64,000 bases of DNA from positions 4,901,901-4,965,900 of the forward strand of contig OX359196.1 of assembly GCA_947172415.1 (NCBI GenBank), read 5' to 3'. The notes below the pieces were generated by a model that searched no databases, was not told the DNA's origin, and was given only the letters and a program-made list of their open reading frames with translations. A program made the translations under genes and the position numbers. Positions 1 to 63,100 of this stretch are shown piece after piece. The DNA is from Chondrosia reniformis (Eukaryota; Porifera; Demospongiae; Chondrillida; Chondrillidae). Each line of letters begins with the position of its first letter. Positions within the stretch are counted from its first letter, which is position 1.

Positions 1-2801
1 TCTGTTGTAGAAATCAGGATAGTCCCTACATAAGAGGTTGTACATAAGAGGTTGTGCAATATGTCTCAAGGAATATGAACATATGTCACAAACATTATGC
101 CATGAAGCTCCAATATTGCACAATAACAAGAAAATGGTCCAGTGGAAAATGTCAATATGAAACTGTATTCTCATCCAAACCTCCTTAAGTAACAAGTTTA
201 GGAAAGGAGCCAATTATATTTATCCTACCTCCTATACATGTCAATCAACCACATTGCAGAAAAATGGTGTTTCACATTATTCTATTTCACAAAGCATTTC
301 AATCAGATAGTCAAGAAGGTCTAAAGTTGTAAGGTAATTTTAATTTGTGTGGGTGTATTTGCTTGTCTGAAATCTAATTGTTCAACTGTCAAATATATGT
401 CTACTGCAAAATAGCATGGGGTATTGTATATAATGTACATATTTAAGGTAAGTCAGGGTATTCAATACCATCCAACTATCCTCCAGTGAAAGACTCTTCT
501 AGTACACTGTTCCACTTACAGGTGGTACTTGTGCACTAAGACAAAGAGTCCATTTAGTGCTAGTATACTGACTACTCCTCCAGCGTTGCTGCAGCTCGTG
601 AGGAAGTCTATTAGTCTTCTTGGGTCAGCCATGTGAGGCATCACATCATTGTGAAGAAACACCAGTACCTCCTTCAACATCCTGGAAGTTAACTTAAAAA
701 GGAGAAATACCTGTATGTTACATCAGAACCTTGTAGCTTCCACTACTTACTGGTAGCTGTAAGAAGGTTAGCCAAGCATCTCCATATGACTTCTTTAAAT
801 CCTTTAAAACAGAAAAAAGAATTTAAAAATGATACACAAGTATTAGAAATACTTTTAAACATATACAGTTTATACGTAGGTAGGTTAACATACAGAGGTG
901 TGTACGTATGTATGCAAAATATTGAAATGATTTTATATGGCATTTCTACCCTATAACCAATACTTTACGTGTATGTATGTCTACCCTAAGTCATTGAACC
1001 AAGAAAATGGTGTTTTTGGTGATTCATAGGTACCTAAAAGTCTTCAACAGTAACAAAACTTACACTGCTAGCATATAAGAGGTTTAAAAACCACAGTGAC
1101 AATAATACAACATTGTAATGGCAAAATATGTTATAAACTACACATTAATATAGCAATCACATGCATATATACATACAAATGTCAATATACATACGTATGC
1201 ATAGTCTAGGGACTTTCAGTGGCTAAGACGGAAGACTCTGGTTAATTGGTTCTTAAAGTGCTTCTGTTTTACATACTGTGAGCCTTATATCAGATACTTG
1301 AACTTTTTTCCTTTGCTTCTTCTTCTTCCTCTTTGCTGGTGGAGTAACATCCTCTGAAAGATGACTGACACCATCCACCTCATCACTTCCCTCATCTACT
1401 AGACTGTCTGCCACTATTTCAACATCCAACAGTATATATAAATACAGCGACGTCAGACCATGAAACATGCATGCTGTTGTGTATATAAGTTCAGTTGAAG
1501 GAGCCATTTCTACTAGTTACGTACCTGCATCTCTTCACTATTTTTTGTGTATCTTAGTAATTCAATCATTGGTACCAAAATTGTGTATATAAGGCACCTA
1601 GATTTAGCACAGAGAGCCAAGGACTCACAAAAGAACAAAAAGAAGACAAAGATTCCCAGGGTCACTGATAAAGGGTGGAATTCCTAGAAACAGCTGTCTA
1701 CCCAGTAGAGAAGAAAAGTAGAAGGAGAAAACTCTTGTATCCTCATCATCCAAGGCTCTCACTAGGTTTAGTTCCCTATAGGTCTTTACTCTAATAAAGA
1801 TGTAAGAAAATGGTGTGTTAGATTATTCATGCAATACCTTGATTGTCTTCTGTGTTGCTGGTGTTGTGTGTAAGGTAGCTCATTTCTTCATTATTCCATC
1901 TAGCTCTCATCTTTAGTCTTATCCCGTTTAAAACTGAATATACATTTCTCACAAATAGATCTCCTTTCAGCTTTCCAGATCTCAAATGAGACAACTTGAC
2001 TGGAACAAGCTTACTATAAACAAGGAATTAAGGTATTTTGCTTACAAGTCCATTACGCATATCAATAAACATACGTACATTGTATTCTTCAGCACATAGT
2101 AAAGGATATCACAGTAACAGAGATACTTGTCAATGAAAGCCTCTATCACTATGCTTTCTTCCTGTTTGTATAGGTTCTCAATCAGGTTTAAAAATATTTG
2201 GTTTGGGAATGGAGAAGGGCTGGCGTGCAGTCCAATTAGGTCCATCATCACCTCCATCACCTTTACCTACCAGAAATACAATAACACCCTTTACCACATA
2301 ACCTTTAGCTACCAATTACAATTGCCATTGTTCATGAAAGGCTGAACTCTGTTATGAGTCAACATTGAAACCCATATAGAGTGTTATTGAATTAAAAGTT
2401 CATATATTCGAAGTTACCCGAACAGAATTTGAACTGTGTGACATCAGTAATGTCAAGCTCTTGTGGCACTCCTGGTAGATTCGGTGTACCCATGCCCCAT
2501 AGTGCTCCAGTGAGCTGCCAGGACCCCACTTTGGAAAGGGATGGCAGAACCACTCTGGAGTTTCCTTGAAGAGTAGCTTAAAGCAGACTAACAAGGCATC
2601 ACACGACTGTAATACTGTACCCTCGTCCTCAGCCTATAGTATGCAGGCAGATAGATATGATACAGCGCTAAAGTACCCATTCCAGGATTAATATAACGTT
2701 CATACTTGTAGTAGCTCTAAAAGATCCACTATGTAGTTAGCATTTTCAGGATTCTTTGCTGCCAACTCTCCCATTTGGTGAATCGAAACTTTTTCGGCCA
2801 T
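1..2801 (-). CDS. NOC4L: NOC4L, nucleolar complex protein 4 homologue (3' end cut by window edge)
   Basis: Ribosome-biogenesis factor of the NOC/CBF family, which in yeast and human works with NOP14 in 40S subunit maturation in the nucleolus. Eight exons read in consistent phase: 2706-2801 (start codon, begins MAEKVSIHQMGEL), 2418-2633, 2079-2260, 1838-2013, 1298-1413, 751-801, 520-692 and <1-25. The last two join to give VLVFLHNDVMPHMADP, then FLTSCSNAGGVVSILALNGL, then HKYHLDYPDFYNR, which is the diagnostic NOC4 core. Exon 1298-1413 encodes a lysine-rich, probably nucleolar-targeting stretch (KRKKKKQRKK). The C-terminal part of the NOC domain lies beyond the left edge. The intron at 1414-1837 contains a decayed hammerhead-like repeat. 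Start-to-start distance to the next gene is 342 bp, so a shared promoter is likely. Family recognition is strong; the exact borders of exons 4 and 5 are inferred from phase. Confidence 0.9.
1610..1800 (+). repeat. Dispersed repeat, decayed hammerhead-like copy A
   Basis: Lies in a NOC4L intron. It resembles 14353-14530 and 21380-21510, sharing the blocks AGGGTGGAATTCC, AGAAACAGCTGTCT, CCAGTAGAG and a CTCTTGTATCCTCATC tail. The hammerhead-like order of core, stem, GAAAC and palindrome is visible at 1659-1703, but the core reads CTGATAA instead of CTGATGA, so a catalytically important G is lost. It is probably inactive. Confidence 0.7.
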
Positions 2802-3143: not shown

Positions 3144-4739
3144 ATGGAGAAGGAACGCCGACTTCTTTCTGGTAAGATGGAATGGAAGGAATTACCAACC
3201 AATTGCTGTTTGAACAAAATGACTTCAAGTAAAGAATCAGCCAACATCAATTACACGAGGCAAGAAACCAAGAGACGAGCTAAACAGGACTTTCACATGA
3301 AGAGACTGTCACAGTATCAAGTTTATTACTATGGAACACCAGAACAACGAGAAATTAAAAGGTGATTTTGGACATTTTTATTAAGTAGTTGTTCATTAAA
3401 AATTAAAAACAAGGGTATTTCTCTGTGTCAATAAAAGAATGTTCTAATTTGATTTAAAGTGTCTGCTTTGTAAATAATTATTTCCACTTCCCTTTTAACA
3501 TTCAATTTCTAAATGCACTGCTGTATGTCATCCCTTTTCATATTCTCTTTCATTTTTATAAGTGTTTACAAGCATATTTTAATTTAATGTATGTTTCAAG
3601 GAAGGAATTGCGGACTGCCTTACAAGATCAGCTCAGTGAGAAGGAGAAAGAGAAGAGAGTGTTTGCCCTAGACATTGCTGACTTTCATAGAACAGCAGTG
3701 GAGGATAAGAAAGTTAGAGAGACAGAAGATGAAGCAGCAGTCAAAAGACATGAATTCTTAAAGACATACAAAAGGGACAACAAGACGGTCAGTTTCTAAC
3801 ATTTAGTGATCAAGCAATGTTTTTACAAGTACTAAGAGATATAATAGTACAGTATATGTAATAGTAGATACGTTGCTACTATTATATATACGTACGTATG
3901 TAGCTATTCCCAGTCCTGTATTAGATAATCAGTTGATAATACCAGATGTTATTATTGGCTGCTAACTGTCATATCAATACATGCAAGTATCATTCATGAC
4001 TGAATTACAATATTGTACAATATCCTTTAAAATTAAAAGTGGCAAAATATTTTGGGATCTGCAATTGTATGAGAATAAAGTCTTATTGAGCATCAGCAAC
4101 TTGAATTTTACTAATTCTAGACGTTTCGACCCAGAGGTCTTCATCACCAATATATTCTCATAATGATCGCAACAAGTACTCCGTATTTCTGCAATAGTAT
4201 GCACATACAGTATATACTAAGTCATATATTGAAAAGGGGAGTTTATTGCACTTAAGCCTGTGCTAGGCTATCATTGCAAATAATAAATCCAGCCCAGCCG
4301 TGTAGATAATTGTCACTTAGTTGGTTGGCGTAATTATCCAGTGTTGTTTATTATTTGCAAAGTCATATATTGTACATCTCCAATGTGCTACATCTCCAAT
4401 GTGCTACATCTCCAATGTGCTACATCTCCAATGTGCTACATCTCCAATGTGCTACATCTCCCATGTGCTACATCTCCCATGTGCTACATCTCCAATGTGC
4501 TACATCTCCCATGTGCTACATCTCCAATGTGCTACATCTCCAATGTGCTACATCTCCAATGTGCTACATCTCCCGTGTGCTACATCTCCCGTGTGCTACA
4601 TAACATGTTTACGTTTATGCATGTGTAGTTGATGGAATTAAAGGCAGAACAGCGTAAGTTAGATCGTCTTGCACAGTGGAAGGAAGACAAGGAGCTTTTG
4701 AAACACAACCCAATTAACTGGAGCAACACTTTGAAGTAG
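3144..4739 (+). CDS. Small coiled-coil protein, unrecognised
   Basis: Three exons, 3144-3361, 3601-3787 and 4629-4739, give about 171 residues. Phases agree (2, then 0). The ATG at 3144 was chosen because the open frame upstream of it has no ATG before an in-frame stop at 3084. The product is highly charged, rich in K, E, R and Q, and looks like one long helix or coiled coil (ELRTALQDQLSEKEKEKR, then LMELKAEQRKLDRLAQWKED). It ends in HNPINWSNTLK, a tail of the sort seen in some ciliary coiled-coil proteins; I cannot name the family. Intron 2 carries a 16-bp minisatellite directly before the last acceptor. It lacks a signal peptide or membrane segment, so it is likely cytoplasmic. Function unknown. 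Confidence 0.7.
4100..4165 (-). repeat. Dispersed GAAACGTC motif, copy 1
   Basis: Read on minus: TGATGAAGACCTCTGGGTC followed by GAAACGTC. This is one of at least nine copies in the window; it lies in intron 2 of the coiled-coil gene. Confidence 0.7.
4371..4605. repeat. 16-bp minisatellite, about 14 units
   Basis: Unit TACATCTCCAATGTGC, with CAA/CCA/CCG variants at one position. Because 16 is not divisible by 3 and the unit has no stop in any plus-strand frame, all three frames are open, which makes spurious ORFs. The array ends about 24 bp before the last acceptor of the coiled-coil gene. Confidence 0.95.
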
Positions 4740-5455
4740 TGCATACACAAGTGTACTCACAGGAATTTGGAAATTGAATATTGTATTACTATTTACATGC
4801 CCATTGTATGAATATCAATCAGTAATGTATATATCATTCATTCAAGATACATTCCTGCAACTTGATTACATAAAAGGCACAATAAATGACATTAATGTTA
4901 ACCTACAGTACCTGAGTACACATACGGTAATTTACAAAGTCCTCAATTTGTAATTAGTTGCTGTATAGAGGTACATCAGGAGAAAATTTTCTTTGTAGTG
5001 TAGTTTTCTCCTTTTCAGTTACATCAAATCAGCTGTACTCATTTAAAGTGCATCTTTTTGGCAAAGTGTGCATCCTTACATACTGCTCCTCTATGTACAA
5101 GATCCTTTCCTCAAACTTTCAGTACGGGCATAATTTTTGATGCTGTACATATGTATATAACATATGCCACATAAATGTTACTTGTAATTTTCTCGCTACT
5201 TAAAAATAAAATGACTTACCTGGGAATAAAATTTAAGGATCTCCCATAAACTGTTCTTGTGGCAAGTACTCATAGCTTATCATCGCAGCCTTTGCATGGC
5301 TCAGCGCAATTAACTCCCTTACTTCATTGTAAACTCTCAGTTTCGTCTAGATTGTAGCCTCCACCTTCACTTATTATGAAACCACAAGTGTTTCACTTAT
5401 ATGTAGTGGATTAATAAGTGAGGGCAGTCATCCAAACTTACCATCATTGAAGTGT

Positions 5456-5500
5456 ACCACACTGATGAGCCCAAATGAGGGAGAAACAGCTGTCTGTGGT
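5456..5500 (+). ncRNA. Hammerhead ribozyme-like motif, type I architecture
   Basis: Directly visible: a six-base stem I, ACCACA (5456-5461) with TGTGGT (5495-5500), all Watson-Crick. The core is CTGATGA (5462-5468). Stem II is 5469-5472 with 5479-5482, three C-G pairs plus a G/A mismatch at the pair next to the core, loop AAATGA. Then comes GAAA (5483-5486), with A5486 able to pair T5493. The self-complementary ACAGCTGT (5486-5493) is followed by the expected cleavage site after C5494 (GTC). A palindromic, loop-less stem III means activity would need a dimer, as known for short-stem-III hammerheads in animal satellites and Penelope-like elements. Activity is inferred, and the stem II mismatch may weaken it. 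Confidence 0.6.
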
Positions 5501-5660
5501 TCTTTGACGAATTTTTTCCATCTTGGATGACTGGGAGGCGATCACTGGTTGCCAATTTAATAGGACTTTGGTCCCCCAGCCAAGATTAGACTGTGGTCAC
5601 TTGGCTGGTTTGGTGTAATATTTTCCACAGTGATTATTTGCTTATCCAGTCTTTATGTTA
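5501..5660 (+). repeat. Repeat body downstream of the hammerhead-like motif
   Basis: It contains TTTGGTCCCCCAGCCAAG and GGCTGGTTTGGTGTAATA. The first block recurs inverted and diverged at 18139-18185, the second at 21281-21300. This marks the hammerhead-like motif as part of a larger dispersed element rather than a chance match. Confidence 0.6.
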
Positions 5661-7326
5661 TGTTTTATATACTTGCATATAAGGTATTATGTATAAAGCC
5701 TGACACTAGTATACATGTACATATATATGCTTTTCTAGTATTTCACAGTAATCACCATCTTCTAATGAATATTAATCAATTACATATGTTTTGATGTGTT
5801 TGGAGATGGTGTTACCTTATAAATATGCAGCTGCCCCCATGTCATGTGATCCAACCTACTACAATCTGTGAACAATTTGTATATAAATACCACAATCCAA
5901 GCAATACACCACTCTGACGTAGTGCCTTTCATCCGTGAGGATATAAATTACTTTTGAAAGTTTCTGGAAGATTATTTAAATCTAATCAAATAGAAAGTGA
6001 GAAGCACTGTAAATAGTTGAACCATTTCTATAAATAGCCTTTTCAATCCTTTGAAACCATATATCAATTGAGTCTTCGTGTATTCCTATGAAATAGTCTA
6101 TAGTAGTCTTCTATTATTATATTTTAGTATAAGGGGTAAAACAGTCATTATACAGATATGTTGGATATTATCTTTATTGTATAGTAACTGTAACAGTATA
6201 AAGAATCACATTTCTATGTATACAGCACTTTGTGTATCATATAACTGTTGTCTTTTGTGACTACTCATTCAGTTATTTAAGTCAGGGCAGAGATAAATCT
6301 GTGTATTTGCATTAGGAGTGAACTGGCCTTGCCTAACCATAGTTTTGTAAATATATAAAATCTAATATCAAACCTTGATCTTTTATGTAGCATCTATAGT
6401 TTGAATTCTTTTATGCTGCCATATGCATAGATAATTGGTAATTCCAGGAATATCTGCCTAAGACTGGGACTTACGTATGTATGTACCAGGTACAATGTAA
6501 GTGTATTCTGTTGAAAGTGTTAATGGTTTACAATTGAATACTAAATACAATCAATATGTATATCACTTGCCCATTAATGAACACATAGCTTTAATTCCCT
6601 CATCCTATAAGTCAGTTTTCAAGTCTCTTGGAGATTTAGGAATATGAATGTACAGTTAACATAGGTACACTACATAGCTTATTCATATACCTGTGAAGGT
6701 GGAAACACCTATTCAATGTCTAGTGACACCTTGTTAGTTTATGATGACATGTATTACATGTAGCAGGCACCCAGAAAGTTCCCCTGGTATATTATTATTT
6801 AAGTGCACCATGTGCATTGCACACTAGGACGAGAGTATGCCCCATGCAGCACTATACAAGAAAGTAAAATGTTGAAAAATATTTAAAGTCATTGTATATA
6901 TATATAATCAGTTTTATAGGTACTCAGAGAGTGAACACTGTATACATACTGTACTTCTATTGCATATGTTAATTAACACTTATTAGGGTATATATAGGGT
7001 GCATGGTAGCCACGACACGACTGCTTTTTTAGAGTGTGTAAGCCTTTCAGTAGTGGAAGGTGAAAGCTATTATGAACAGGTGGCTTATTTGTGTTAGTGG
7101 CATCAAAAATTGCGAGTCAGCGTGGGTCTTTTGAGGCACTCATAAAGGATCATTGGCGTTATATAGTGTACAGTTGTCAATCTGTTTTTATAGTTCTGTG
7201 TGAAGTTTTTTATCCTTGTAAATGATATGACTGTTCTTGTGAATATCAATTTGTTAATAGTTGTACCACGTTTGTTAGATAAATTGATTTAGAACTCTTT
7301 GTTTGTAGAAATCTACAGATAACACC

Positions 7327-9334
7327 ATGCAATTAAAGATCTTTATCGTCTTTGTTTTGCAATTGATCATGATAAGAATGATTTGTGCAAATCCTAATTG
7401 TAAGTTATGTCTTTAAGTATACATAATTTAGTTGATTGTTTATTTGAGTTATGTACCTGCAACAATTAAAATTCAAGGATTTGGGACATTTCGACCCATA
7501 TGTCTTCAACAGCAATTATTGCTGATGAACCTACGGGTTATATGCATGCAATAATACATGTACATTATGCATGCAATAATACACGTACGTATATAGGTAA
7601 CCTCACAGCAGTAAACAATACTAATGTGGGCTGTTCTGGAGACATTATTCAGTTGAACTGCACACATTCCTACAATAAAACAGTTGCTATCTCTTGGATG
7701 AAAAATGGAACACACATTAATAAGGCACCTCTTGGGGATGAAGGAGAAACCTTTTCTCTTCTTAATGTTACACTGAAGGGGAATGTGTCTGGACAAAGCA
7801 CATTCCTGTACAGCTGCAATCTTCACCACATTGACACAAATGAGAATGAAGCTTGCAATGATATTCTAGTAATTGTAAATTGTGAGTAATCATTGACTAT
7901 AATGGTACAGTAGAACTAAAATGAGTCCTTATACACTCATGTGTATATATATTTACACATATATGTAGGTATATAGTACAGTTTAACCCATGCATTTAAG
8001 ATGAAAGTGAAATTTCCTCATGTCCTAATTTTTTATCAAATTAGGATACTCATTATGAACGCAACAAAAACCCCTTATCACTTTAAGCTTATATACCGAT
8101 ATATATTACTAAGTAGGAATGGCCGGGGAAAAAAATGGCCGCCCTATCCAATGTATTAGCAATCAACACCTCATAAATCGCCAACGAAGCGATTTTCGGT
8201 TATATTCGGTTATTTGCAGCGATTAATGCACGCTTTCCTAAATGCCAAAACATGTTTCGACGCTCTACACGCTCTATAGCGTTCAAAAAGTGGCTAACTA
8301 GGAATAGACCCATTTCCAAAATTCATTTTTTCTTCTTCTTCTTCTTCTTTTATTGAATAGACTAGCGCTAATATGCAAACTTATGTGGGCACGTACTAGT
8401 TATAAATCGTCATAAATATTTCGGAACTAGGGAATAGACAGCCCTAAATCTGAATGCGCTCTACAATAAGCATGTTAATTGTGAAGAGCGAAAATTGGGG
8501 TCTTCTCGGACGCCATTTTTTAATTAAGAGATCATGGTTTTCGGCATATTTCTCTTGTCTAAGACGTTATTTTGAGATCTTCGCCAAGAAAACTTTCAAA
8601 TCAATTTAAAACAAGTAATATTAAGAGGAAAAAAGGGGGAATACAAGTAAATAAAAAACATTTACAAAAATGATGTTAGAAGTAGGAATGGCAGTGTTCA
8701 CTAATACATCTGCAAAAAGTATCGAAACAAGACACTGATTATATGATAAGGCTAATCATACAGAAGTTGCATATATACTGAAATTTAAGTAACTTAACCA
8801 TACACTTCTGTGTTTGGGCGCACCATTCCTACTTGAGGTTAGTGCGGGTGAGGTTAGTGAGGTTATCATATAATCAGTGTCTTGTTTCGATACTTTTTGC
8901 AGATGTATTAGTGAACACTGCCATTCCTACTTCTAACATCATTTTTGTAAATGTTTTTTATTTACTTTACATATATACATTTACATATTTCAGTTTGCAA
9001 TAGCAGCATTCCAGATGACCATTCGAATTCCAGCTCAAAAACCTCAGGTATGGTTTATTCAAGATCTATTTCTTGTATTTTAAAATATTATCCAGTCATA
9101 TTTTCAAGCCAAATATAGGGCATATACTTTTAATTTGTGAACACATTATACATGCACTAATGGAAATAATAACTTTAAATTGTAATATTTTTATATTATC
9201 TGATCGATCCTTCAATCATCACTTTTCAATTGCAAGTTGGAAAAGTACGTAATTAAATAGCCTCTCCTTTTGTTCTAGATTTATTCTGTGCAAAATTGCT
9301 TACACTGTTGAGTTTAATACTTATTATTTGCTGA
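7327..9334 (+). CDS. Secreted Ig-domain protein, probably GPI-anchored
   Basis: Four exons, all joined in phase 1 as is usual for extracellular modules: 7327-7399, 7597-7881, 8994-9047 and 9279-9334; about 155 residues. Exon 1 is a signal peptide (MQLKIFIVFVLQLIMIRMIC). Exon 2 is one Ig-like domain: a Cys in DIIQLNCTHS, the core Trp in AISWMKNG, and a partner Cys in FLYSCNLHH, with extra cysteines and several N-glycosylation sites (NLT, NNT, NCT, NKT, NGT, NVT, NVS). Exon 3 is a Ser-rich linker. Exon 4 encodes a short hydrophobic tail, KLLTLLSLILIIC, ending at TGA with no cytoplasmic charge, which fits a GPI-anchor signal. A MITE fills most of intron 2. A surface or adhesion role is inferred. 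Confidence 0.75.
7466..7535 (-). repeat. Dispersed GAAACGTC motif, copy 2
   Basis: On minus: TTGAAGACATATGGGTC followed by GAAATGTC, in intron 1 of the Ig gene. A small hairpin, CAGCAATAATTGCTG, precedes it. Confidence 0.6.
8112..8967. mobile_element. Composite MITE with ~103-bp inverted arms
   Basis: The right part is a fold-back: 8646-8749 and 8863-8967 are nearly perfect reverse complements. The left part (8112-8345, beginning AGTAGGAATGGCC) matches 54105-54334 in reverse orientation. No coding capacity is seen, so it is non-autonomous. It sits in intron 2 of the Ig gene, shares CATTCCTACT-type ends with two other copies, and carries a TTC microsatellite at about 8330-8348. Confidence 0.8.
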
Positions 9335-26720: not shown

Positions 26721-29600
26721 ATGGTTTTCCTAAACCCAAGGTTTGCCTATCTATTTGTTGTCTCAATTTTGTGCTGTTCCAGTCTTCCAATCTCCCAAGA
26801 CCCTCCTAGCAATGATGACTGTCAAGGTGACCCTATTATTCTAGAAAATGCTGGTCTGGAGGGTCTTGTGGAAGGAGACATCGTAATAGATGAATGGACT
26901 CAGAGGGTGATGGATGAATCTAGTCAACAGAAAAGAGATACTATTGGAAGAAATAATCCAGAACGACTCTGGTCGTCTGGAAGGGTTCCAGTTGTATATG
27001 ATTCAACTTTAAGTGAGTAGGAGTCACCTATATAACACCCATAATGTTTCCATCTATAGTATCTCACTAACTATATTTAAGTGTACCAAGACAGTATTCT
27101 AGGTCCACGAAAAACATGGCCGCCCTTCGGCTCCAAGTAGGCTATAGACCTACTTCCGGTTTTCCTTATTTTCTTCGTATCACGCTAGCACAGATCTTAG
27201 ATGCATATCGTCTAAAAATTGTAGCGGCTAGGGAATAGGTGCCTTAAGTTTAAACGCGCTCTATACGAATCGTGTTACTTTTGTAGGTCCCAACCCAATG
27301 TTATTACGAAGAAAACTATATAAAATAAGTATTTAGAAAAGAGGAATATACGTACATGTTAAATAAACACATTCAAAAAATGAAGTTAGATGGCTAAGTC
27401 ATTTAAACTTCCGTATGTGACTTCTGTATGGTTGGTTATCCTTATATATGATCACTGTCTTGTTTTGTTACTTTAACTGGATGTGCAAGTCATTGTCGGG
27501 GCACTGCCATCCCTACTTCTAACTTCATTTTTTAAAGTTTTATTTAAACGTTCCACACTCAAAATTGTAATTAATTAATTTCCCTTTGTTCCAGCCGATG
27601 CACCTGCACACAGAGATGCTCTTAATCAAGCCATAAACCATGTTCAACAGGTAACATGTATAAGATTTGTAAACAAGACAGAAGGAGACAACAGTTATGT
27701 CATATTTGTCAGCGTTATGGGGTAAGCCATATATATAGTCTATATATAAGCACCATGTAACTTCCAACCTTATGAAATTTGCTGATGAAGACCTATGGGT
27801 TGAAACACTCTATTATCAATAATCTATGTTGCTGTTGCTCAATAATACCTCTGGATTTCATCATATGATCACAACAAACAATCCTTATCACTTCATCTTC
27901 CAACCTTATATACGTATATTATAGATTCACATGTGCATGCAGCATGTATGTAAACCTCTGTATTCCTAATGTATAGATGTTGGTCTTCAGTTGGACGGAG
28001 AGGAGGTAGTCAGTATCTCTCTGTTGGATGTGGCAATAATGGAAGCATTATTCATGAGCTACTGCATGCTCTTGGTTTATGGCATGAACACAGTCGTCTT
28101 GACAGAGAAGCATATGTAAGAATAGACATGAATAATGTTTATTATCCTGCGAGACAGAACTTTGAAAAACATCCACGTGGAAAGCAAGATTCACTCGGAG
28201 TGCCTTATGACCTGAACAGCATTATGCATTATAGTGAATATGTAAGTTAAGTGTTATATATATACGTATATGTATATTATTACGTATATGTATATTATTA
28301 CGTATATAAGATGTTCCCATCCCTATACATATGTACACTGTATTTATGTAGGCATACAGCATGAATGAAAGGCCAACAATAGTTCCAGTGGTTGAAAGTT
28401 CCAATGTTACAATTGGACAAAGAAAAGGGCTCAGTCATTTAGATATTCAACAAATTCATCTTCTCTACAATAACTGCAACAGTATGTATATATATACACA
28501 TCTTGGTACTCATGTATACATAACATTAGTGCTTGCAGAAATGACTGCAAACATTATCTTAAAACAACAGCCTCAATTTATCCTATACAGGTGCAACATC
28601 TGCCGAGGAGCAAGAATACGAAGAATCTACAGTTCTTATACAAAACAACAGTACAAACTTGTGTTTATTTGCAGAAGGACCTGATTCAGTTACTCTAAGT
28701 TCCTGTCAGGAAGATCTCCAGACTATGCAGTGGGTATGGACACACAAGCATCAATTGAAGAATAGATTCGTAGGGCTTTGCTTAGCTATTGTAAATGGTG
28801 AATTGGTCCTTAGATCATGTGATAGGCATGTGACCGATTTTCAAGAATGGGCTTGTGGAGAATATCATTTAATGATGCCTTCAGCAGGACTGTGTCTGAC
28901 TGCAGCCATTGCAGGTGTAGTACCAGAAGATCATCTTGAAGGAAGCATCATTCGAGAATTACAAACATATCTTAATCCTGACCCAACTCCAGTTGTAACC
29001 GCTTGTAGACTGCATTCACCAGAGCAAGTTTGGCAGCTATTTGCTACTTCTACAGGAAGAAGTAGAAGACCAGTTTGTTCCTCAAATTCCCTAAAAACTC
29101 ATGAAATAGCAAAGTGTCATGAAGAGCCAGCTATATATAACAATAGAACAGGACAATTGATAGTCTCTTGCAGACATGTAAATACATTTGTAAATAAAAT
29201 CCACTATCCCGTAAGAGAAGGAGAAATCGGATTGGAATGTTGTGCTTCTCCAAAGCGATTTTCTGGAAAGAAGGCTACAGTGAATACTAACACGGCTGAA
29301 GTGTGCATTGCAATTGAAAATACAATATGCCCAAATGGATACTACATGAAGAAGATATGGTATTCTGCCAATGGCCACACAGTAGTTCAAGTGAAGTGCT
29401 GCACAGATGCCATAGATACTGCAAATTCAACACAGTCATGGGTGGTAACCACCACTAAGGCAGTAACATACAGCCAAAATGAAGCTGTTACATACAACTG
29501 TGGGAAATCTACTGGCCTCTTTGTATCCAGGATCATACAGTTGGAACCATGCATCAGAAAAAAGGACACCTGTACAGATACACTGCATTGTAGCATATGA
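26721..29600 (+). CDS. Astacin-family metalloprotease with ricin-type beta-trefoil and Cys-rich tail
   Basis: Five exons, 26721-27012, 27595-27721, 27977-28241, 28352-28481 and 28591-29600; 607 residues. The start gives a signal peptide (FAYLFVVSILCCSSLPIS). A short propeptide ends near a basic site (QQKRD), then RVPVVYDSTLS opens the catalytic domain. The zinc site is HELLHALGLWHEHSR (His166, Glu167, His170, His176) and the Met-turn is SIMHY (Met223, Tyr225), both intact, so an active secreted zinc endopeptidase is expected. Exon 5 adds a beta-trefoil lectin-like region with LCLFAEG, GLCLAIVNGELVLRSC and three QxW-like sites (MQWVW, FQEWAC, QVWQLF), suggesting glycan binding. A Cys-rich C-terminus with two CC pairs (LECCAS, VKCCTD) follows; I do not recognise it. 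Usual astacin partners (CUB, EGF, ShK) are absent. Intron 1 carries a degraded MITE. Confidence 0.9.
27098..27545. mobile_element. Degraded MITE related to 8112-8967
   Basis: It begins with AACATGGCCGCCCTTCGG and ends CACTGCCATCCCTACTTCTA followed by ACTTCATTTTT, matching the ends of the 8112-8967 family with many substitutions. It lies in intron 1 of the astacin gene. Confidence 0.65.
27778..27900 (+). repeat. Dispersed GAAACGTC motif, copy 4
   Basis: GCTGATGAAGACCTATGGGT, then TGAAACACTC, ATGTTGCTGTTGCTCAATAA, and a tail ATGATCACAACAAACAATCC with TTATCACTT. The tail is shared with 35770-35890 and, in part, with 8060-8082. It lies in intron 2 of the astacin gene. Confidence 0.75.
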
Positions 29601-43164: not shown

Positions 43165-44334
43165 TCACTGAGTGTTGCATCCAAATACAAACTGAAAGGG
43201 TCTCAAGATTCGCTCCTTCCACACATGCTCACTGTGTGTGATGCCATCATACCTAATAAAGCTACCTTCATCCAAGTGATACATAAAATCTTTTCCATTC
43301 TCCATACCCATGACTGTGAGGAGTTCTGCCATTTCTTTTGTCTCAAACAGGTTATCCCCAGGGGCTTCCCCTGAATCAAAGTACACCTTTCCCTTGAAGC
43401 TGCACACTTGGGCCAACTCGTACACACTACTGTCAGTCCTATCTCTATACCAGAAGGATGGAGACATGCAAATGGCCGCCCCAAACACCTCTGGTAGGGT
43501 TGCCATGGCGCAGAAAGCTAGCAGCCCACCCATTGAGGCTCCCACAATAACTGTGTGTTTAGCATCAGACAATGTTCTGTACTGCCCATCTACAAACACT
43601 TTGACTACTTGTACTAGATACTGCATGTAGGGAGAACTGGCGGCTTCAAGTAACACTGAAGGACAATACTCTCGCTTACGATTACCAATACACACAAAAT
43701 CAGAATTGGGTATTGCAACGAGAATGAACTCAGGAAAGGCTTTGACAGACCAGTAGTGATCCAGCTTCTCATCAAGCCACATTCCGCCAAAACCAGGGCC
43801 CCCGAAGTTTCCTCCAGGCGTGGAGAAGACATTCTGTCCGTCCTGCATATAGACCACAGGATATCTCCTCTGATGGTCCACGCTATAGGACGGCGGCAAG
43901 TACACAAATGCCTGTCGCTCCAAGATGCCCCAACTTTTAATCTCATCTGGAATGGGAATTAGATGAGTGGAGAAATAGGATTCGTTGCAATTGGGGCGAT
44001 GGTATTCGCGATACGGAGGATGCTGCGCGCGAATACCATACACTTTAGCATCCATGTGGACAAACATGATTGAGTTACTGTACATAGAGTTGTCCGAATG
44101 ATCATTCCACTCGTCGCGTAGCCACTCTCCATCAACGACAAACTTATACAGATAGAAACCTTCAATCATTGGTAGTGTTATAGAAAAGCCTTCATCACAA
44201 AGCAACATACGATATTCATCCTTAACTAGCCATCCACAAAAGTCTCCGACAAGGAAGACATTCTTCGCATCCTTTTTTCTATAAACAAAGGTCACTCTAT
44301 ACCAGTCCTCGTCCATGAATCTGTACAGAGTCAT
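43165..44334 (-). CDS. Alpha/beta hydrolase (esterase D/Fes-like) with N-terminal CBM48-like domain, intronless
   Basis: Single open frame of 389 residues. Residues ~8-90 look like an AMPK-type glycogen-binding/E-set domain (KNVFLVGDFCGW, then GFYLYKFVVDGEWLRD). Residues ~130-389 are an esterase of the enterobactin-esterase/YieL-like group: RQAFVYLPPSY, RRYPVVYMQDGQNVF, nucleophile elbow VGASMGGLLA (Ser267), a possible Asp near 320 (YFDSG) and His370 in THSEHVW. The fusion of an E-set domain to a Fes-like esterase is common in bacterial enterochelin and xylan/feruloyl esterases. Substrate unknown; hydrolysis of an ester in a polysaccharide or siderophore-like compound is a guess. No signal peptide, so cytosolic. 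The lack of introns beside many-exon neighbours raises the possibility of bacterial origin. Confidence 0.8.
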   Translation of the reverse strand: MTLYRFMDEDWYRVTFVYRKKDAKNVFLVGDFCGWLVKDEYRMLLCDEGFSITLPMIEGFYLYKFVVDGEWLRDEWNDHSDNSMYSNSIMFVHMDAKVYGIRAQHPPYREYHRPNCNESYFSTHLIPIPDEIKSWGILERQAFVYLPPSYSVDHQRRYPVVYMQDGQNVFSTPGGNFGGPGFGGMWLDEKLDHYWSVKAFPEFILVAIPNSDFVCIGNRKREYCPSVLLEAASSPYMQYLVQVVKVFVDGQYRTLSDAKHTVIVGASMGGLLAFCAMATLPEVFGAAICMSPSFWYRDRTDSSVYELAQVCSFKGKVYFDSGEAPGDNLFETKEMAELLTVMGMENGKDFMYHLDEGSFIRYDGITHSEHVWKERILRPFQFVFGCNTQ

Positions 44335-44660
44335 GAGCTACGTATAGACAGCCATGTTTTGTACGGGGGCATTTCCCTTAATTATATATGCACATGCACA
44401 AACATCTGTCTGTGCTAGTATATAGGAATAATCCACCTCTTTGAGATCACTGCAAAAGATAAAGCTTTTGTGTACATATTATGCCTAATCATTGCAACTG
44501 TCTATACATTTACTAGTAAGTGTATACTGTACATATTATACACAATATAGTAGGTATAAGTCCTAGTAATAGTAAGGCGTATAACTAAATGTCTGTGAGT
44601 AGAGGTGATTTATACATAGTATATGAGTGAGGTTCAGCTATGTATTTCTCTGGTCTTGAG
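44335..44660. other. Short gap between two minus-strand genes
   Basis: Contains the hydrolase promoter and the 3' flank of the second receptor gene; no exon or repeat seen. Confidence 0.6.
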
Positions 44661-51177: not shown

Positions 51178-54100
51178 ATGGCATCGCCTTCTAGTAGCCA
51201 GAGGACCCAACCGAAGCGCCCCATAGGTAAGTCAAATAGTGCTGCTTATGTTGAAACACGTTTGTGCCCCCTGAGCGAAGGCACAATCTTATAATTCCTG
51301 AGATTGTTATCAAACTTAGTATAACTTGTATTCGTTACGCCCTGCGGCTCAATATTTTAGCGGCGAGAAACTTTTCATTTTCCCTATTTAATGTATGCTC
51401 CTCTCTAAGGGTTATTACCGTCTAATACTGACTGGCAGTGAATGACTCGTTCGAATTATAGACAGCTTTGTGATTACATGTGAATGTTTTGATTGTAATT
51501 AAAAAGATGTTCGACCTCAACCCTTGTTTCTGTGTAAATGTTCACACGTAGTGTTATGGGTGTTTAGTATAACTTGTGTACTGCATAAGCAAGCAGCTTT
51601 CTATAGTCCTATTTCCTATTTGTACGGCGTTTTTCCTTAAAGCTGACTTCAATAGATTGCCACTGTATGAGGTGCTGCAGTTAGCGTAAGAAACAATGTT
51701 ATGGTGAATGGTTGTCTTATTGTGTTGTTGCTTGTGTGTAATCAGTAGAGACAAGTGCCATGGAGACCATTAGGTAGATTATCTCTTGTAACCAAAGCAC
51801 ATATTTAGTCGGATTCTTGTAACACGATGTAACTGGCACTGAATGATCAAATCTTCTTTCAGCTATTCCGGGCCTGAGCACTCGGGAGAACTGAAAGATA
51901 GTTGTTCTCTCTTCATTGGAACAACCAAGTTGTGGCTTCCAACAACTTTCCTTATTAATGAAGCTCAACAATGCTTGTGTTCACAATTTTTTAATTCCAA
52001 TTTTTTCTTCTAATGACCAGCTTACTGGTAACTGTGCTAGTGTGTGGCTAGCTTATTGTTATTTTTTGTGGGCTACTAAAGGTAGTATTACCACCTCTCT
52101 TCATCTTTCAATGGAAATATATTAGATTAGTACCAATTATATGGAGACAGAATAACTAATTATAGTACTAATTATGACTATTTAGCTACATGTGTTTTGC
52201 TTTTGTATTCCTACTGGTTGATGCACTTCTTCATTTTAGCAGATAGTGGTAGTTTCATTATGAGTTGAGTCATTTGTGCCTCTAAGATAGAAAGCCCACC
52301 TCTTATTCATATTAACTTTATTATGAGTTGGCCTCTAAGATAAAAAGCCCACCTCTTATTCACTTTAGCAGATGGAGGTAACTTTATTATCAGTTGACTG
52401 GCACACTTAATGTTATATAGGGTGTAGCGAAGATACTCTAAAGGTTCTGAGACGTGACATGTGTTGTTTGGCGGGATGTAACTGATTCTGTGTTGTGTCT
52501 GTGTAGTTGTGATGTACAGGGGTGACGGTACCTCCTCCAGCAGTCAACGTCTAGTGTACAGAAACTAGGTAGATATGGCCTTTCATTCTGATGACTGATG
52601 AATAGTTGTAGATTGACATAGAAAGTATAGTTGATTGAATAACAAATAAACAGGTATGAATAAAAATAGATTGAAACTTGAGCAATTTCTCAACTTCAAT
52701 TTTATTTAAATGAATGAGTCAGTCAATACGTTTTCTCTGTTACTGTATACAGTGTACAGTACTGTATAATTGACAATTTATAAAGTGTATACATTTATTT
52801 GGTTCCTAAAGGTTATATGTTACATACACTAACAAATGAGCCACTCATTACATGTACATCTTTATGCCTTGAGATAAAATGTAATATGCCCTATAGTTTT
52901 ACAGGCATAATAATATATATGTAACTTTTAGCTGACCAGAGAGGTCGCTCTGATACCTCTACCCGACCAGAGAGGTCGCTCTGATACCTCTACCTGACCA
53001 GAGAGGTTGCTCTGATACCTCTACCTGACCAGAGAGGTTGCTCTGATACCTCTACCCGACCAGAGAGGTCGCTCTGATACCTCTACCCGACCAGAGAGGT
53101 TGCTCTGATACGTCTACCTGACCAGAGAGGTTGCTCTATATCTACATAGCTGCCTTAGAGTTAGGAAGTAATGTAAACAGTTTAAATGTCTAACAAAGTC
53201 ACACTTCATGTTTAATGGTTCACTTTGAAAGACTATTTTCACTGTATTAATCTAATCTTATAACACTTGTTCATACTTGTGCATAACAAGCTTGGATACC
53301 ATTCAGTAGTTAAAGTGATTCATGCAGGCCTTGTCTGTGCCAGGATGTAGACATTCCTTTATTGTGTGATGGAGGCTTAAATAAGGATTTTGCTTAAATA
53401 AGGATTTTATAATTCCATTGTAATCATTGTTACAGTATGGTAATGAATTTGATTGGCTGTGTGGTTTTTACTAGCAACTGTAGACAATGTGGTGTGTGTT
53501 CCTTAATTGAGTGTACATTGTATGTACCTGCCAGACAGGTTAAGATTGGTACTCATGTCAACTGATAACTGATAGACCATCAGCTGACTGCAAAGGTCCT
53601 GTCAACCTTATATCTTGGAAGAAATATGTAAATAACTCAGGAAACCATGTAATGCAAACAAGTGGTGTGACCACACCTAAGGAAACCTTACTTGCCAAGT
53701 GATTCTCATTTGGCTTTGCTCTGACGCTTCAAGTAAAGGCTTCTTGTGAAACTAGCCTAGATCTTCTATATTAGGAAATATTAAGGAGAGGTACTATATA
53801 TCCTGTGCATACGTATATGTACAAGTAAATAAAAAACATTTACAAAAATGATGTTAGAAGTAGGAATGGCAGTGTTCACTAATACATCTGCAAAAAGTAT
53901 TGAAACAAGACACTGATTATATGATATATACAGAAGTTGCATATATACTGAAATTTAAGTAACTTAACCATACACTTCTGTGTTTGGGTGCACCAAACAG
54001 AAGTAGGAATGGTGCGCCCAAACACAGAAGTGTATGGTTAGGTTACTTAAATTTCAGTATACATGCAACTTCTGTATGATTGGCCTTATCATATAGTCCA

Positions 54101-57100: not shown

Positions 57101-60100
57101 ATTATGAAGTTTAAAATAGTAAATCAAGATTGTATCATTACATTCAGATTACACCTATAGGCTGTAACTAACAGCAATATATTTAAATATACCTTCTTCT
57201 TGATGTACGTATGTACATATGTACAATATTTAGATAACCATTGATTTAATAATAATCTTGGTCAAAGAGGTAAAATGAGCTTTCTATATATGGTTTTAAC
57301 TTATTCTATTTATTAGATTTGTCAAAGTCACATTAGTGCCTGTGTACATACATGTGTATTATGAGAAACATATCCTTAAACATGAAACAAGAGATGGAAA
57401 TGTGATTGAAAAAATTATCAAAGTTGAACCAAATTCAATCTCAAAATACTTATAATTCAAGACTGCTAAATGTCTCCTGATCTACTAATTCTTTATAGTT
57501 GATCTTAAGATTTTGGAGAGTGTAGAGATGCAGTTGGCCGTCTTTGGACGTTTCGACCCTGAGGATCTTCTGTGACTGATGGACTGCTGGTGGTGGTCTC
57601 TTTTTATAGACATTTCCCACCTTTCATTTCCTGTTACATGGCTTTTCCAGTGACCTGTCATGTGATCTGTCATGTGACTCATGAGAAGGACAGGAAGTAC
57701 GTATGAACATTGAATTGTTTCCAGGCCTAGATCTAGGTTATATTCTAAAGACGGGAGAAAGAGGCCACCACAAGAAGCAGTGCAGTTCATCAGTCGCTGA
57801 AGAAGACCCTCAGGGATGAAACTTCCAAAGAGAAGAAAGCCAACTACATCTCTAAGCTCTCCAAAATCTTAGGATGAACTACTTAAAAGATCAGTTTGGC
57901 CCAGTTAGAAGGAATCCTTATCGCACATTCACTGTCCTCCTCTCCTTATTTTCTATCTCTTTCTCTATTCAATGATGTAATGTTTTTCGAAAGAACTTGT
58001 CTCGAGTGCCTATTTCTATGTGTACAGTGGAATGTCAGTTATCCGGGACCGAACTCTTCATGCAATCCTTGTTCTGCAGCTAACAACTATATATTGCACG
58101 CGCAATGTCAAAGCTGCACTTTGAGAAGGCCGTTCAGTTGACCGATGTGTTCGGATGACTGAAGTTCGGATAACTGACATTCCACTGTATATGGAAAGTA
58201 CTTCAAAAGTTAATGTATTGTTTCATTATAATTTATACAGCTAGCTCTGGCAGCAACCATGCGGACCCAAAGTGAGTGTTAAAGTGTGGGCTTCCACCAG
58301 CATGCCTTGCTCAACTTTCATTGTTGTGTGCTGTGTGCACTGTAGTTAGTATAAGGGGTGCTGTGTGCTGTGTGCTGTGTGCTGTGTGCACTGTAGTTAG
58401 TATAAGAGGTAAATAGGAATTGAACATTGCTATGGCAATTGTAGCTCAGTGGCGGGTACAGTTCCCAACAATTGCTTCTTCTGTGTTTTTCCCTTTTTAT
58501 GATATTTGTGAATATTTACTTGTGGTTTGATTATCACTTTCATGTCTGTATAACATTTTGCTATTTTTAAAATCTTAGATCACCAGTAGCAATACCAACT
58601 GTGGTAGACAAGTCTACTAGAAGACCGCCACCAGTGCTCCCTTATTCAAGTTACAAGAAGTCACACGACCCTTCAGATAGCAGTGATGTACTAACTAACA
58701 ATGAATCTAAGGACCCTGCTCAGAAGTTGCCTGACACTCAACTCAAGGGTACTCCCTCGGCAAATAGTAAGAAAAGTGCAGAGGGTGTGTCTACAAAGCC
58801 CCTCCCCCTTCCTAGCCATGACGCATCACCCAGGCACACACAGCCTCCCTCCTATCCCGCCCCCAAGCCTCCCTCCGATCCCGCCCCCAAGCCTCCCTCC
58901 GACTCTCCAGACAAGACTAAAAAGGATGAACAAAAAGACCATCAAAGTAGCCCCCAGACCTCCTCCACTGCTGTTCCTTATATGGTGAGCAATATAGCTG
59001 GTTCAAAGCAGGCGACCTCTTCTCATGATGAATATGCTTATGCTACTGTAACACCTAGAATAAAACCGTCACCAGCTGCACCACCAGACCCTTCACAGCA
59101 CACCTACACTCTTCCACAAAAGGAGACCAGTTTAATTGATGACGTCCTTAAATCACTCTCACCTGAGCTGGCTCGTGAATGTGAGGCAGTGGCAGTGAGC
59201 AACAAGGAAGGTGGAGGTGAAAACAAGCCTCGTCATTACCCTCAGGTGAAGCCTAAGCCAAAGAGACGGACTCCATCTGGAGACAAACCATCTGAGCCTT
59301 TACCTGAGAACCTTGAAAAGAAAAACGAACCAATAACAAATGGTGTAACAGCAGACAGTGATACAAGCCATTCTGAGGGAAATCCCCCTGGGAAGCCCTT
59401 TGATCTAGAAAGCATTTCTAATGAGACTGGTGATGCAACTAAGACAAGAACACCTCCTAAGCCAAGAAGGAAGGCCCCTCCTCCACCTGTTAAATCACTG
59501 CCATCCTCCAAACCTATTTCCTCCAAGCCTATTGCTGCCAAGTGTGATTCCACCAAGCCTGATATTTTACAGCCTTGTTCACCTATAATCATACAAAATA
59601 ATTTTGCTGAAGGGCTTGAGCGAAGGCTACGCCAAGGTAGCATGTCCCCCCCATTGGAAAGAACACAGTCAAACAGCTCAGAGTTGCGGAGATCAAGATC
59701 CCTTCCAAGAAACAGAGGCAGGAGAACGCAGGCAGCAGACAAGCAAAACTCTTCAACTTTGGGCAGAGATGCAAAACTGTTAGTAAAAGACAATGATAGT
59801 GAAGATAAACGGAAAGGAAAACTATCAAAAAAATTTAAAAAGATATTTTCTGGAAATCCTTCCCAAAAGAAGAAAGTAAACCCAGATAGTGAGTTGATAT
59901 TGATGGTAAAACCTGCCTAGTCAAATTAATTTTGTTTACTCCAGTGTAGCCATGTTTGGTAGTTAAATAGCCAGTTAGGTAGTAATGTACTCCTCACATG
60001 TTAGGTCCTGCCAGCAATGAAGCTGAGGACTGTAACCATGGTAACAGACCAGCTAGGTCCATGGCTCCTCCTGAGACTAATTTCCTTGGTTACTCTGAAG

Positions 60101-63100
60101 TGGATATCATGCCAAGAGCTACCAAAACCTCATCAAAGGACCAGAACCAGTTCAGTAATGCTTATGAAGCTATTGATATAGTACGTTTGTAGTGATTAAT
60201 TAAAACACACATTTTGCTACATTTGGATCGATTTTAATATTTACTTTTAATTATAATACTGTATTACGTAGATTAGATCTGCAATAGAAATGTGTATCAA
60301 CCTCACTAACATGTCAACCTCACAAGCATGTCAACCTCACTAACATGTCAACCTCACTAACATGTCAACCTCACTAACATGTCAACCTCACTAACATGTC
60401 AACCTCACTAACATGTCAACCTCACTAACATGTCAACCTCACTAACATGTCAACCTCACAAGCATGTCAACCTCACAAGCATGTCAACCTCACAAACATG
60501 TCAACCTCACAAACATGTCAACCTCACTAACATGTCAATCTTACGAGCATGTTAACCTACCAGACATTTTATTTCACAGACAAGTCGTGCAGTAATGACA
60601 TTCAAAGTGAATGTTGTTTATTATTTGGCATTACACTTTCACCCAAATTGTTCACATATTATGCTATAAAAATAACTATGTTTAACTTACGCACTGTACT
60701 ATACTAAATAATGTAGCTTTCAAAGAGTTGTTTGAACTAACTAAATAGTGTATTTTAGCATCCCAGGGTACGTGCGTATCAATCAGAACTTCAACTAGCC
60801 AGTTTTTGTAGATTTTTAAAGTTTTGAATATTCAGTGTGGTTATTGTGCTGGTTTGGTCAAGTATATCTGTTAAAGAGTGTTCCTCTTGATGTTCTTCAG
60901 TCCAGTAAACCACCGCCCAAGCCAAAGAGGACATTCAAAGTTTCTCTCAAGTCCCTAAATAGGAGTCAAATACCAGAGGGGGAAGATACACACATCTATG
61001 CACAAGTAAGGTTTACAACTTCTAATTGCCAGTTACCTCAAATAATGATTATCTAGAACAATGGTTCACATTGTATGTGTGTCTACTAGCAAGAGATAGA
61101 CACACAGATACGATGTACTTATAGTTTACATAGGGGAACAAATGTTTTTCTTTCTTCACATTTGGCCAGGTATGCAACTGTACTAAGGTGGTTTTGTAGC
61201 TGTTTATTACTTTGTCCTTATTAGGTAAAGAAGTCAACTACACTACCAGCAAAAAGCAATTGTGTAACAACTTATGAAGACGTACGTAGGTTAAAGTGCT
61301 TTCCTTTGTTGATCTTCTTCTCTCTCCTCCTAATTATTAAATGTAGTATAACTAATTATTAGCAGTTATTTTAGAAAGGTGACAGAGTCGGGCTTTAAAG
61401 GGTATATAATAATGCATCCTTATTTTTCAGGTTGTTTTTAGGGAAAGGTCACAATCAGTAAAAAAGCAAGCAAGCAAGCTCAGAATCTCGCGAGCCCTTT
61501 CAGCTGAATCATTTAACCTTGAAGGTATTGAAGACATGGAGTCCAGTGACTCATCCCACTCACCAGAGGTCCCCCCAAGGAAGTATCTCGAGGACAAAAA
61601 GTGCTCCAGCCCTCCTAGCCAACTGGGACCTCCAGATGTCTGCATCACAGCTCCCACGTCCTCCTCTCAGGGAGACACCTCACCATCTCACCAAACTACC
61701 ACAGCCACCCAGCAGACAGAGGCACAAGCACCTCCGCCAGTTGCTAAGCGCAAGCCACCTCCTATTCCTAAACCTTACTCAAAACACAAAGAGGAGACTC
61801 TAAAGAAAGAAAGACGTGGAATTTCTCCTTCAAAATCAGATGGGTTGCTCTCACAGAGAAATAGCACTTCTGCTACCAGCTTCTCGGGGTTTGCTCCAGG
61901 CATGCCCACCGCCATGAAACGAAACTCAAATGAATCCCCTGGCGCAATCTTCCTCCCTCAGACCATGATAGACCTTGCACCTGCCAACCCTCCTCCTATA
62001 GTCAGCAGTAGTACTGAGGATGATCAGGACGACACCGACTGGGAGGAGAGTGGAGATGAATTTGACGAATGGGATGAAGAGGAAGTGAGTACTATCACAA
62101 CATCACTGCATGTGTCATGAAGTTATCTCAAAGTCCAGTCTATTGTTGCATCCAAATGTTTTGGCACATGTATGCAATCTATCCACCTTTATGTTGTGGT
62201 ATTGCTGTGTACAGGAACCTAACAAAGATCGACCAAAAACTTACTTTTTGGCAAAAGAGTTGCTAACAACTGAAAGAACGTGAGTAAATATTGTTGAGTC
62301 ATTTAAGGTAAAAGAAACTGTTTTTTTAATTTTTAATTTTAGGTTTGTGAGACGCTTAAAGCTTCTGGATGAGGATTTTCGTGGTGTGTTTGAATCTTAC
62401 AATAGGGCCCATTCTAAAACAGCCATTTCTGAGGATGCCTTAAAACAAATTCTCTCCAATATTGGATCACTTAAAAACCTCAACAAACAATTTTTGGGGC
62501 AGTTGGAAGCAAGATTTAAAACGTGGTGAGTGCATGGAGCATCCTTTTTGAACAGAAAACACCTTCAAGAGATATTCTTTCAATTTCTATAGGGACAGTT
62601 GTCCCCGGATAGGAGACATATTATTGAGTATTGCACCATTCCTGAGGGTATGTATAATGTATGTTTCGAAATCGAGCAACAATATTATTTATCTTTCAAT
62701 TTACATATTTTAGATGTATTCAGAATATATTTCTAACTTTGACAATGCTCTGAAAGTACTGGATGATAATATGAAAAGGAATCCAGTTTTCCTTGAACTG
62801 GTCAAAGAGTTTGAAGTAATAATCATTCTCTCTTCACTTGCTTTACTGTCACTCATCTGTTTATTGTTCCTTTAAAGGCCGACCCTCAGTGTGCCAATTT
62901 GAGTGTTGCAAACTACATGTTAGAAACAGTTCAGCGAATTCCAAGATATAAGATACTGTTACAAGGTATGTACAATACATGATTATCACTTTGTAGATTT
63001 ACCCAGCTCTCCTACACACTGATATTCTCTAGTAGCCAGGTGGTTAAGATGGCCTCCTATCCCAAAGGGATTTGACTAGGTCTCTTCTTTATTGTCCACT

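Follow-up and report, generated by a model that had tools for sequence, protein, structure and literature searches.

A degenerate hammerhead motif of the sponge Chondrosia reniformis and its family of putative retrozymes with Penelope-like insertion ends

The window analysed here, a stretch of 64,000 nucleotides, contains a hammerhead ribozyme motif that belongs to a family of non-coding repeats dispersed through the genome of its sponge host. In our judgement this hammerhead is likely to belong to an animal non-LTR retrozyme, a non-autonomous and non-coding element present here as a decayed monomer, with a cycle that would be driven by Penelope-like elements (PLEs). Copies of the family end at two fixed sites, and PLEs in the same genome end likewise; as the motif lies in a 359-bp retrozyme with such ends, its tie to PLEs is closer than a likeness of ribozymes. 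The context is thus ordinary in kind, that of an animal retrozyme, and the two-site end rule is the interesting addition to it.

The first-pass annotation had read a near-complete hammerhead from the sequence, and a motif search of the window located every part in the place and order claimed, including the palindromic stem III and the mismatch next to the core in stem II (Table 1). When mapped onto the circular unit of the family, the window copy starts and ends near the first of the two sites, and its two termini share the 7 nt GCTTATC (5275-5281 and 5640-5646). It shows no clear target-site duplication at its ends, is ~88% identical to the nearest relatives that were fetched from the genome, and looks like an old, solitary copy.

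Table 1. Mapped and predicted features of the window copy
Feature	Position	Strand	Basis and remarks
Whole retrozyme monomer, 146..145 on the circular 359-nt unit	5275..5646	+	unit mapping
"Tail" between two inferred reverse-transcription start sites	5282..5326	+	end mapping in sister loci, 50 non-duplicate loci
Small hairpin AGCC-TTTGCAT-GGCT within the tail	5287-5301	+	read from sequence
Long closing stem, 5' half AGTCATCCAA	5426..5435	+	pairs with 5523-5532
Outer stem I, 5' half	5444..5452	+	counterpart of 5502-5510, with one pair missing; placed after the circular fold of the family A unit L012, from which the predicted fold of the window copy itself deviates in this region
Type I hammerhead ribozyme motif	5456..5500	+	motif search; G-A mismatch at the core-adjacent pair of stem II
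Inner stem I ACCACA/TGTGGT	5456-5461 / 5495-5500	+	motif reading
Core CTGATGA	5462-5468	+	motif reading
Stem II GCCC/GGGA, paired at three positions and mismatched (G-A) at one	5469-5472 / 5479-5482	+	motif reading
A in place of the C of the commonest family form; loss of pair 10.1-11.1	5482..5482	+	comparison with fetched cores
GAAA	5483-5486	+	motif reading
Stem III ACAGCTGT, self-complementary; predicted to pair fully only between two hammerheads	5486..5493	+	sequence and cofold
C17	5494	+	motif geometry
Predicted cleavage position	between 5494 and 5495	+	motif geometry
Outer stem I, 3' half	5502..5510	+	placed after the circular fold of the family A unit L012
Long closing stem, 3' half TTGGATGACT	5523..5532	+	pairs with 5426-5435

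Searches of the 117.4-Mb assembly (15 contigs) with the core pattern, allowing up to three mismatches, recovered 587 matches (294 and 293 on the two strands) and none with the reversed control; a slightly wider pattern with zero mismatches gave 199, the control again giving none. The excess of 587 over nothing in the control argues that the motif is not due to chance. Within the window the pattern search (up to three mismatches) gave this one match, and the longest further match between the rest of the window and the 1.7 kb around the motif is 39 bp, so that the related copies which had been invoked as an argument against chance are those in the rest of the genome. BLAST of window positions 5340-5680 against the genome returned at least 83 matches (40 of 1184 candidates scored), and 36 loci were fetched around them; copies are spread across all 14 chromosomes. 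Contig 15 of the assembly encodes ATP synthase c, a gene found in sponge mitochondria. Most of the cores in the fetched loci have an intact stem II of the form GCCC-AAATGA-GGGC. The cores read from fetched loci and the window number 102, of which 41 are distinct (L053 and L062 are omitted, being covered by L067 and L068, and the duplicates L018, L028 and L073 are still counted); the commonest, at 39 of 102, is a 49-nt form with GGGC, and an A at the faulty stem II position occurs in just three cores, those of the window, L013 and L024. Intact cores, the absence of which the first-pass annotation would have taken as contrary evidence, are accordingly common among the genomic copies.

The check that it had suggested against the Rfam hammerhead models divides between the window copy and its relatives. 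No part of the window matches Rfam at gathering scores, and the motif itself has a weak match to HH9 (20.2 bits, E 0.024), a model with six matches across the genome, none of them above the cut-off. Those intact motifs that were tested against Hammerhead_1 (RF00163), with a cut-off of 34, score 34.6 bits in one family of copies (A) and 37.1 bits in a second (B), and 51 of the 65 matches listed in a genome search exceed the cut-off (73 of 11,921 candidates scored). The same search matched in none of 14 control genomes, all prokaryotic, and neither the viral contigs, searched with an exact 20-base pattern, nor plasmids gave a match. Matches to MIR868 and mir-15 in L067 and L074 fall below the cut-offs of those models and were taken as artefacts.

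Families A and B have units of 359 and 354 nt that are ~61% identical over a full-length alignment. From A to B, stem I changes from ACCACA/TGTGGT to GCCATA/TATGGC and stem II from GCCC/GGGC to GTCC/GGAC, and the long closing stem is altered on both sides in three pairs. Judged by sequence comparison, stems I and II of the hammerhead are kept through compensatory changes, with two of five summary measures disagreeing. Among the 41 distinct motifs: 1) 93.3% of pairing cells are paired, as against 87.2% in shuffled data; 2) double-change cells, the covariation that the first-pass annotation had looked to, number 53 as against 18.4; and 3) the covariation score is 0.271 as against 0.149; for each of these measures none of 500 shuffles was as high, the motifs being related, so that the shuffles overstate independence. 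The double changes fall on the alignment A1 pairs 3-47, 7-43 and 17-28 (17, 17 and 19, respectively). The two dissenting measures are the number of pairs changed on both sides, which is three and not in excess (220 of 500 shuffles as high) because just three pairs separate families A and B, and the number of further pair types, which at ten is likewise not in excess (499 of 500 shuffles as high). Further, the circular consensus of 13 aligned units comprises 94 pairs, 24 of them with changes on both sides and with 93 of 1222 cells broken, the consensus structure being derived from the same alignment in which the changes were scored. In the calculated circular folds all five units are more stable than shuffled sequences, with z values of -9.8 and -6.7 for family A copies and -5.4 and -8.0 for family B copies; the window copy, at -3.7, is the least stable of them.

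For a single 45-nt motif of family A an alternative fold (-16.0 kcal/mol) is predicted to be preferred over the hammerhead (-7.4 kcal/mol). For a pair of family A motifs the double hammerhead reaches -37.5 kcal/mol as against twice -16.0 for two single motifs, and family B behaves alike; both families share a self-complementary stem III, the octamer ACAGCUGU having a calculated self-duplex energy of -11.1 kcal/mol, and in both a double hammerhead is predicted. These calculations favour the dimer-type action anticipated from the palindrome and support the view that the hammerheads may act as dimers, as with newt-type motifs. In the newt and axolotl hammerhead single motifs cleave poorly and dimers well (PMC7229834); the likeness lies in a weak helix III with a palindromic cap, and the difference in that here the palindrome spans the closing A-T pair (ACAGCTGT), leaving six unpaired bases in a single motif. 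A pair of window motifs is predicted to form a weaker cofold (-30.5 kcal/mol) than the intact family A motif, which agrees with the weakness suspected from the mismatch, and by this calculation little activity probably remains in the window copy.

In sister loci the units stand head to tail with lengths of 352-362 bp. In five units the GC content is 42-45%, and the longest ATG-started frame, on both strands of the tripled units, does not exceed 51 aa. No PLE reverse transcriptase or GIY-YIG frame was found inside the elements at the 36 family A loci with the L066 protein, a PLE-like frame of this genome, as the query. The tandem units, together with the target-site duplications described below and the lack of a long ORF, identify the element as an animal non-LTR retrozyme: its units are tandem, of type I and non-coding, its duplications exceed 4 bp and its RNA is predicted to pair with itself. 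Lacking a PLE frame, the unit does not itself count among the PLEs, despite the likeness of its ends to theirs.

We mapped the loci onto a circular unit opened at the predicted cleavage site. Each consists of one arm alone, or of two, the inverted one preceding the sense one; arms reach 1782 nt, or about five units (L011), and one at L026 measures 1624 nt. Dropped before ends were counted were L018 and L028, which were taken as the same insertion as L010 (L028 differs from L010 in its left flank and agrees with it at 95% in its right flank), together with L073, a duplicate of L072; the flank matches that remain between loci resemble simple repeats. Target-site duplications of at least 10 bp (10-15 bp) flank 29 of 50 non-duplicate loci, as against 34 of 2450 mismatched flank pairs. 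The outer ends fall at two fixed sites in 78 of 84 cases (51 of 55 in family A, 21 of 23 in family B and six of six in three test loci), the distance between the sites being ~43 nt in family A and ~55 nt in family B. The site windows (143-160 and 186-203 in A, 136-152 and 190-203 in B) were set after viewing the data and were defined by the A and B loci, so that the true test of the end sites is given by the three test loci. The inner ends lie in these windows in 11 of 68 cases in family A and the test loci (6.8 expected) and in six of 24 in family B (2.1 expected), so that in family B the inner ends favour the windows too.

Two-armed loci number 34: in 27 each site is used by one of the two ends, in two site 1 serves both ends (L031 and L068), and five could not be classed (L024, L033, L035, L069 and L079). 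Under an even and independent choice of sites, the probability of at least 27 in 29 being one of each is 8e-7. The rule was predicted beforehand for loci fetched afterwards, and all three (of 19 places) comply with it. The inverted arms of the element thus bear at one end, like those of PLEs, an optional tail bounded by two inferred start sites. That both arms of a locus derive from one RNA is suggestive only: among the 32 loci whose arms overlap sufficiently, the partner arm gives the single best match in 12, and a best or joint-best match in 15. Three other candidate regularities were given up: 1) cDNA 5' ends lying exactly at the cleavage site (L031, L036) appeared in a first mapping and vanished in a better one; 2) a preference of insertions for ACTAGT simple repeats gave 46 occurrences in 6,800 bases near them and 704 in 127,903 distal bases, without a useful excess; and 3) arms of one unit, as evidence of a circular template, number eight of 92 against 3.3 expected, too weak an excess.

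The genome also contains PLEs. GIY-YIG matches number at least 38 (150 scored of 382 candidates), and PLE-like frames of 772 aa (L066) and 750 aa (L065, with RVT_1 and GIY-YIG domains) are present. Three insertions of this PLE, at L065, L083 (C13:2512550-2513150) and L084 (C12:3687100-3687700), each combine a sense arm with an inverted one; their ends occupy two sites ~35 nt apart, one end per site, and duplications of 13, 12 and 12 bp, respectively, flank them. Two further pairs of neighbouring PLE matches that resembled insertions with site 2 at both ends (L085/L086 and L087/L088) were set aside as not being one insertion, because they show no duplication (5-6 nt shared) and the right match continues into sequence that the two loci share. 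In print, the cDNA of an Anolis PLE starts at two sites bounding a tail of 30-40 bp, with both target strands extended (PMC11167929), and rotifer Penelope carries the tail on one of its inverted pseudo-LTRs (PMC3846280). As the same pattern is seen in PLEs both in print and in this genome, the retrozymes carry a PLE-like end pattern. Compared by eye, the tails of the retrozymes and that of the single PLE family examined showed no obvious similarity.

On these grounds we infer that PLE proteins move the retrozymes, in a cycle of the following kind. Tandem retrozyme copies would be transcribed, and adjacent hammerheads in the transcript would pair via ACAGCUGU and cleave as a double hammerhead to yield RNAs of ~359 nt that could be ligated into circles. 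A Penelope-like reverse transcriptase with a GIY-YIG endonuclease would cut both target strands, and cDNA would begin at the two fixed sites on either side of the tail, as a rule with a different site for each strand. Two cDNAs would then join head-to-head, leaving an inverted arm, a sense arm and target-site duplications of 10-15 bp. We tentatively suggest, with somewhat less than even confidence, that animal retrozymes are satellites of PLEs and that a PLE dimer grips one retrozyme RNA by the hairpin lying between the two start sites and primes both cut target strands simultaneously, from one site each; priming of this kind would normally give one tailed and one tailless end per insertion.

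It is unlikely that the retrozymes are moved instead by a LINE-type enzyme, the two sites being 3' ends of the RNA or strong stops. LINEs as well as PLEs have been named as possible movers (PMC7229834), and reverse transcriptase genes are many in this genome, all 150 scored candidates being RVT_1 (1688 in a first look), of kinds left unsorted. Against this, a run of six or more A within 4 nt past an outer end occurs in none of 84 cases, and snap-back copying predicts the identical site at both ends. LINE-1 twin priming occurs at random internal sites, whereas the fixed double ends, one of each in 27 of 29 loci, fit PLEs. The repeats might also be no separate element, and represent just fragments of the pseudo-LTRs of an autonomous PLE; the inverted arms and end pattern are as in PLEs, and a PLE pseudo-LTR in this genome has a hammerhead-like motif too. 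We regard this as very improbable, as the retrozyme units adjoin directly, the PLE motif differs in sequence, and with the L066 protein as the only query a PLE match lies inside the element at none of the 36 family A loci; with that query, PLE matches were found ~0.8-2.3 kb from the retrozyme at L034, L040 and L041. A satellite-like tandem DNA spread by recombination, with the hammerhead as a passenger, would account for the long head-to-tail arrays of L011 and L026, and is hardly credible given the dispersal over every chromosome, the duplications at 29 of 50 loci, the fixed outer ends and the compensatory changes in RNA stems. Chance resemblance at 5456-5500, which the low score of the window copy alone might suggest, is refuted by the genomic family and has a negligible probability.

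Compared with known systems, the element is closest to the animal non-LTR retrozymes of PMC7229834, with which it shares the type I hammerhead, tandem copies, no long ORF, a unit size within 170-400 nt, a similar GC content, duplications of more than 4 bp and a circle calculated to be highly paired. It differs from them in the 8-nt palindrome of its stem III, in the inverted head-to-head arms and two end sites (that text uses neither "inverted" nor "tail"), and in its host, sponges being unmentioned there. Retrozymes are new for sponges, as far as our search extended, most subscription journals lying outside it. With PLEs that have minimal hammerheads and a tail of 30-40 bp (PMC11167929, PMC3846280) the element shares the position of its hammerhead upstream of the start sites, a pair of end sites bounding a tail, the inversion of one arm, and target-site duplications. 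It differs from PLEs in that reverse transcriptase and endonuclease were not found in the unit, in a hammerhead that, unlike the minimal ones, passes the Rfam type I model, and in tails that exceed the 30-40 nt of PMC11167929. Plant LTR retrozymes (PMC4918200) are alike in being non-coding, in having a hammerhead and in the idea of a circular RNA; they differ in that they are LTR elements, their hammerheads belong to type III and their duplications measure 4 bp (PMC7229834, PMC7761336).

The mover of animal retrozymes had been left open, PLEs being proposed from co-occurrence and shared features (PMC7229834, PMC7761336) and called "strong candidates" because, besides occurring together with retrozymes, they too have hammerheads and tandem copies (PMC7229834). 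The ends left by integration identify the mover more directly, and here the tail pattern of PLEs recurs in two families as divergent as A and B. No description of a two-site end pattern in retrozymes was found in the available text of PMC7229834, PMC7761336 and PMC11722881, from the literature since 2020. The two-site, one-of-each rule makes the mover testable, and the end pattern can be checked in the genomes of corals, mussels and the axolotl. The near-obligatory use of one of each site also constrains how PLEs copy both strands.

Several further observations concern the PLEs and the window at large. A retrozyme copy, of which 58 nt match at 83%, has the PLE insertion L065:1969-4432 at its site-2 end; the 13 bp duplicated by this insertion read TAAAAGGGAGTTA. 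The PLE locus L066:1-5501 has inverted arms and hammerhead-like motifs on both strands at a spacing of 615 bp, separated by a simple repeat of the ACTAGTTGT type. At position 57797 (+) the window has CTGAAGAAGACCCTCAGGGATGAAAC, which is similar to the PLE hammerhead-like motif; a tblastn search with the L066 protein found no PLE coding remnants in the window. An open frame at 28563-29600 (+) encodes a ricin-type beta-trefoil lectin domain (E 1.5e-9). A 390-aa frame at 43165-44337 (-) combines an Esterase domain of Pfam (E 6.7e-22) with an AMPK1_CBM domain (E 3.1e-10) and might be of bacterial origin. At 8642-8967 lies a 105-bp perfect inverted repeat (8645-8749 and 8863-8967) that looks like a fold-back element, with near-identical copies 45 kb away at 53820-54098. 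Tandem arrays occupy 4325-4644, 60229-60618 and 52893-53171, with units of 16, 17 and 31 bp, respectively.
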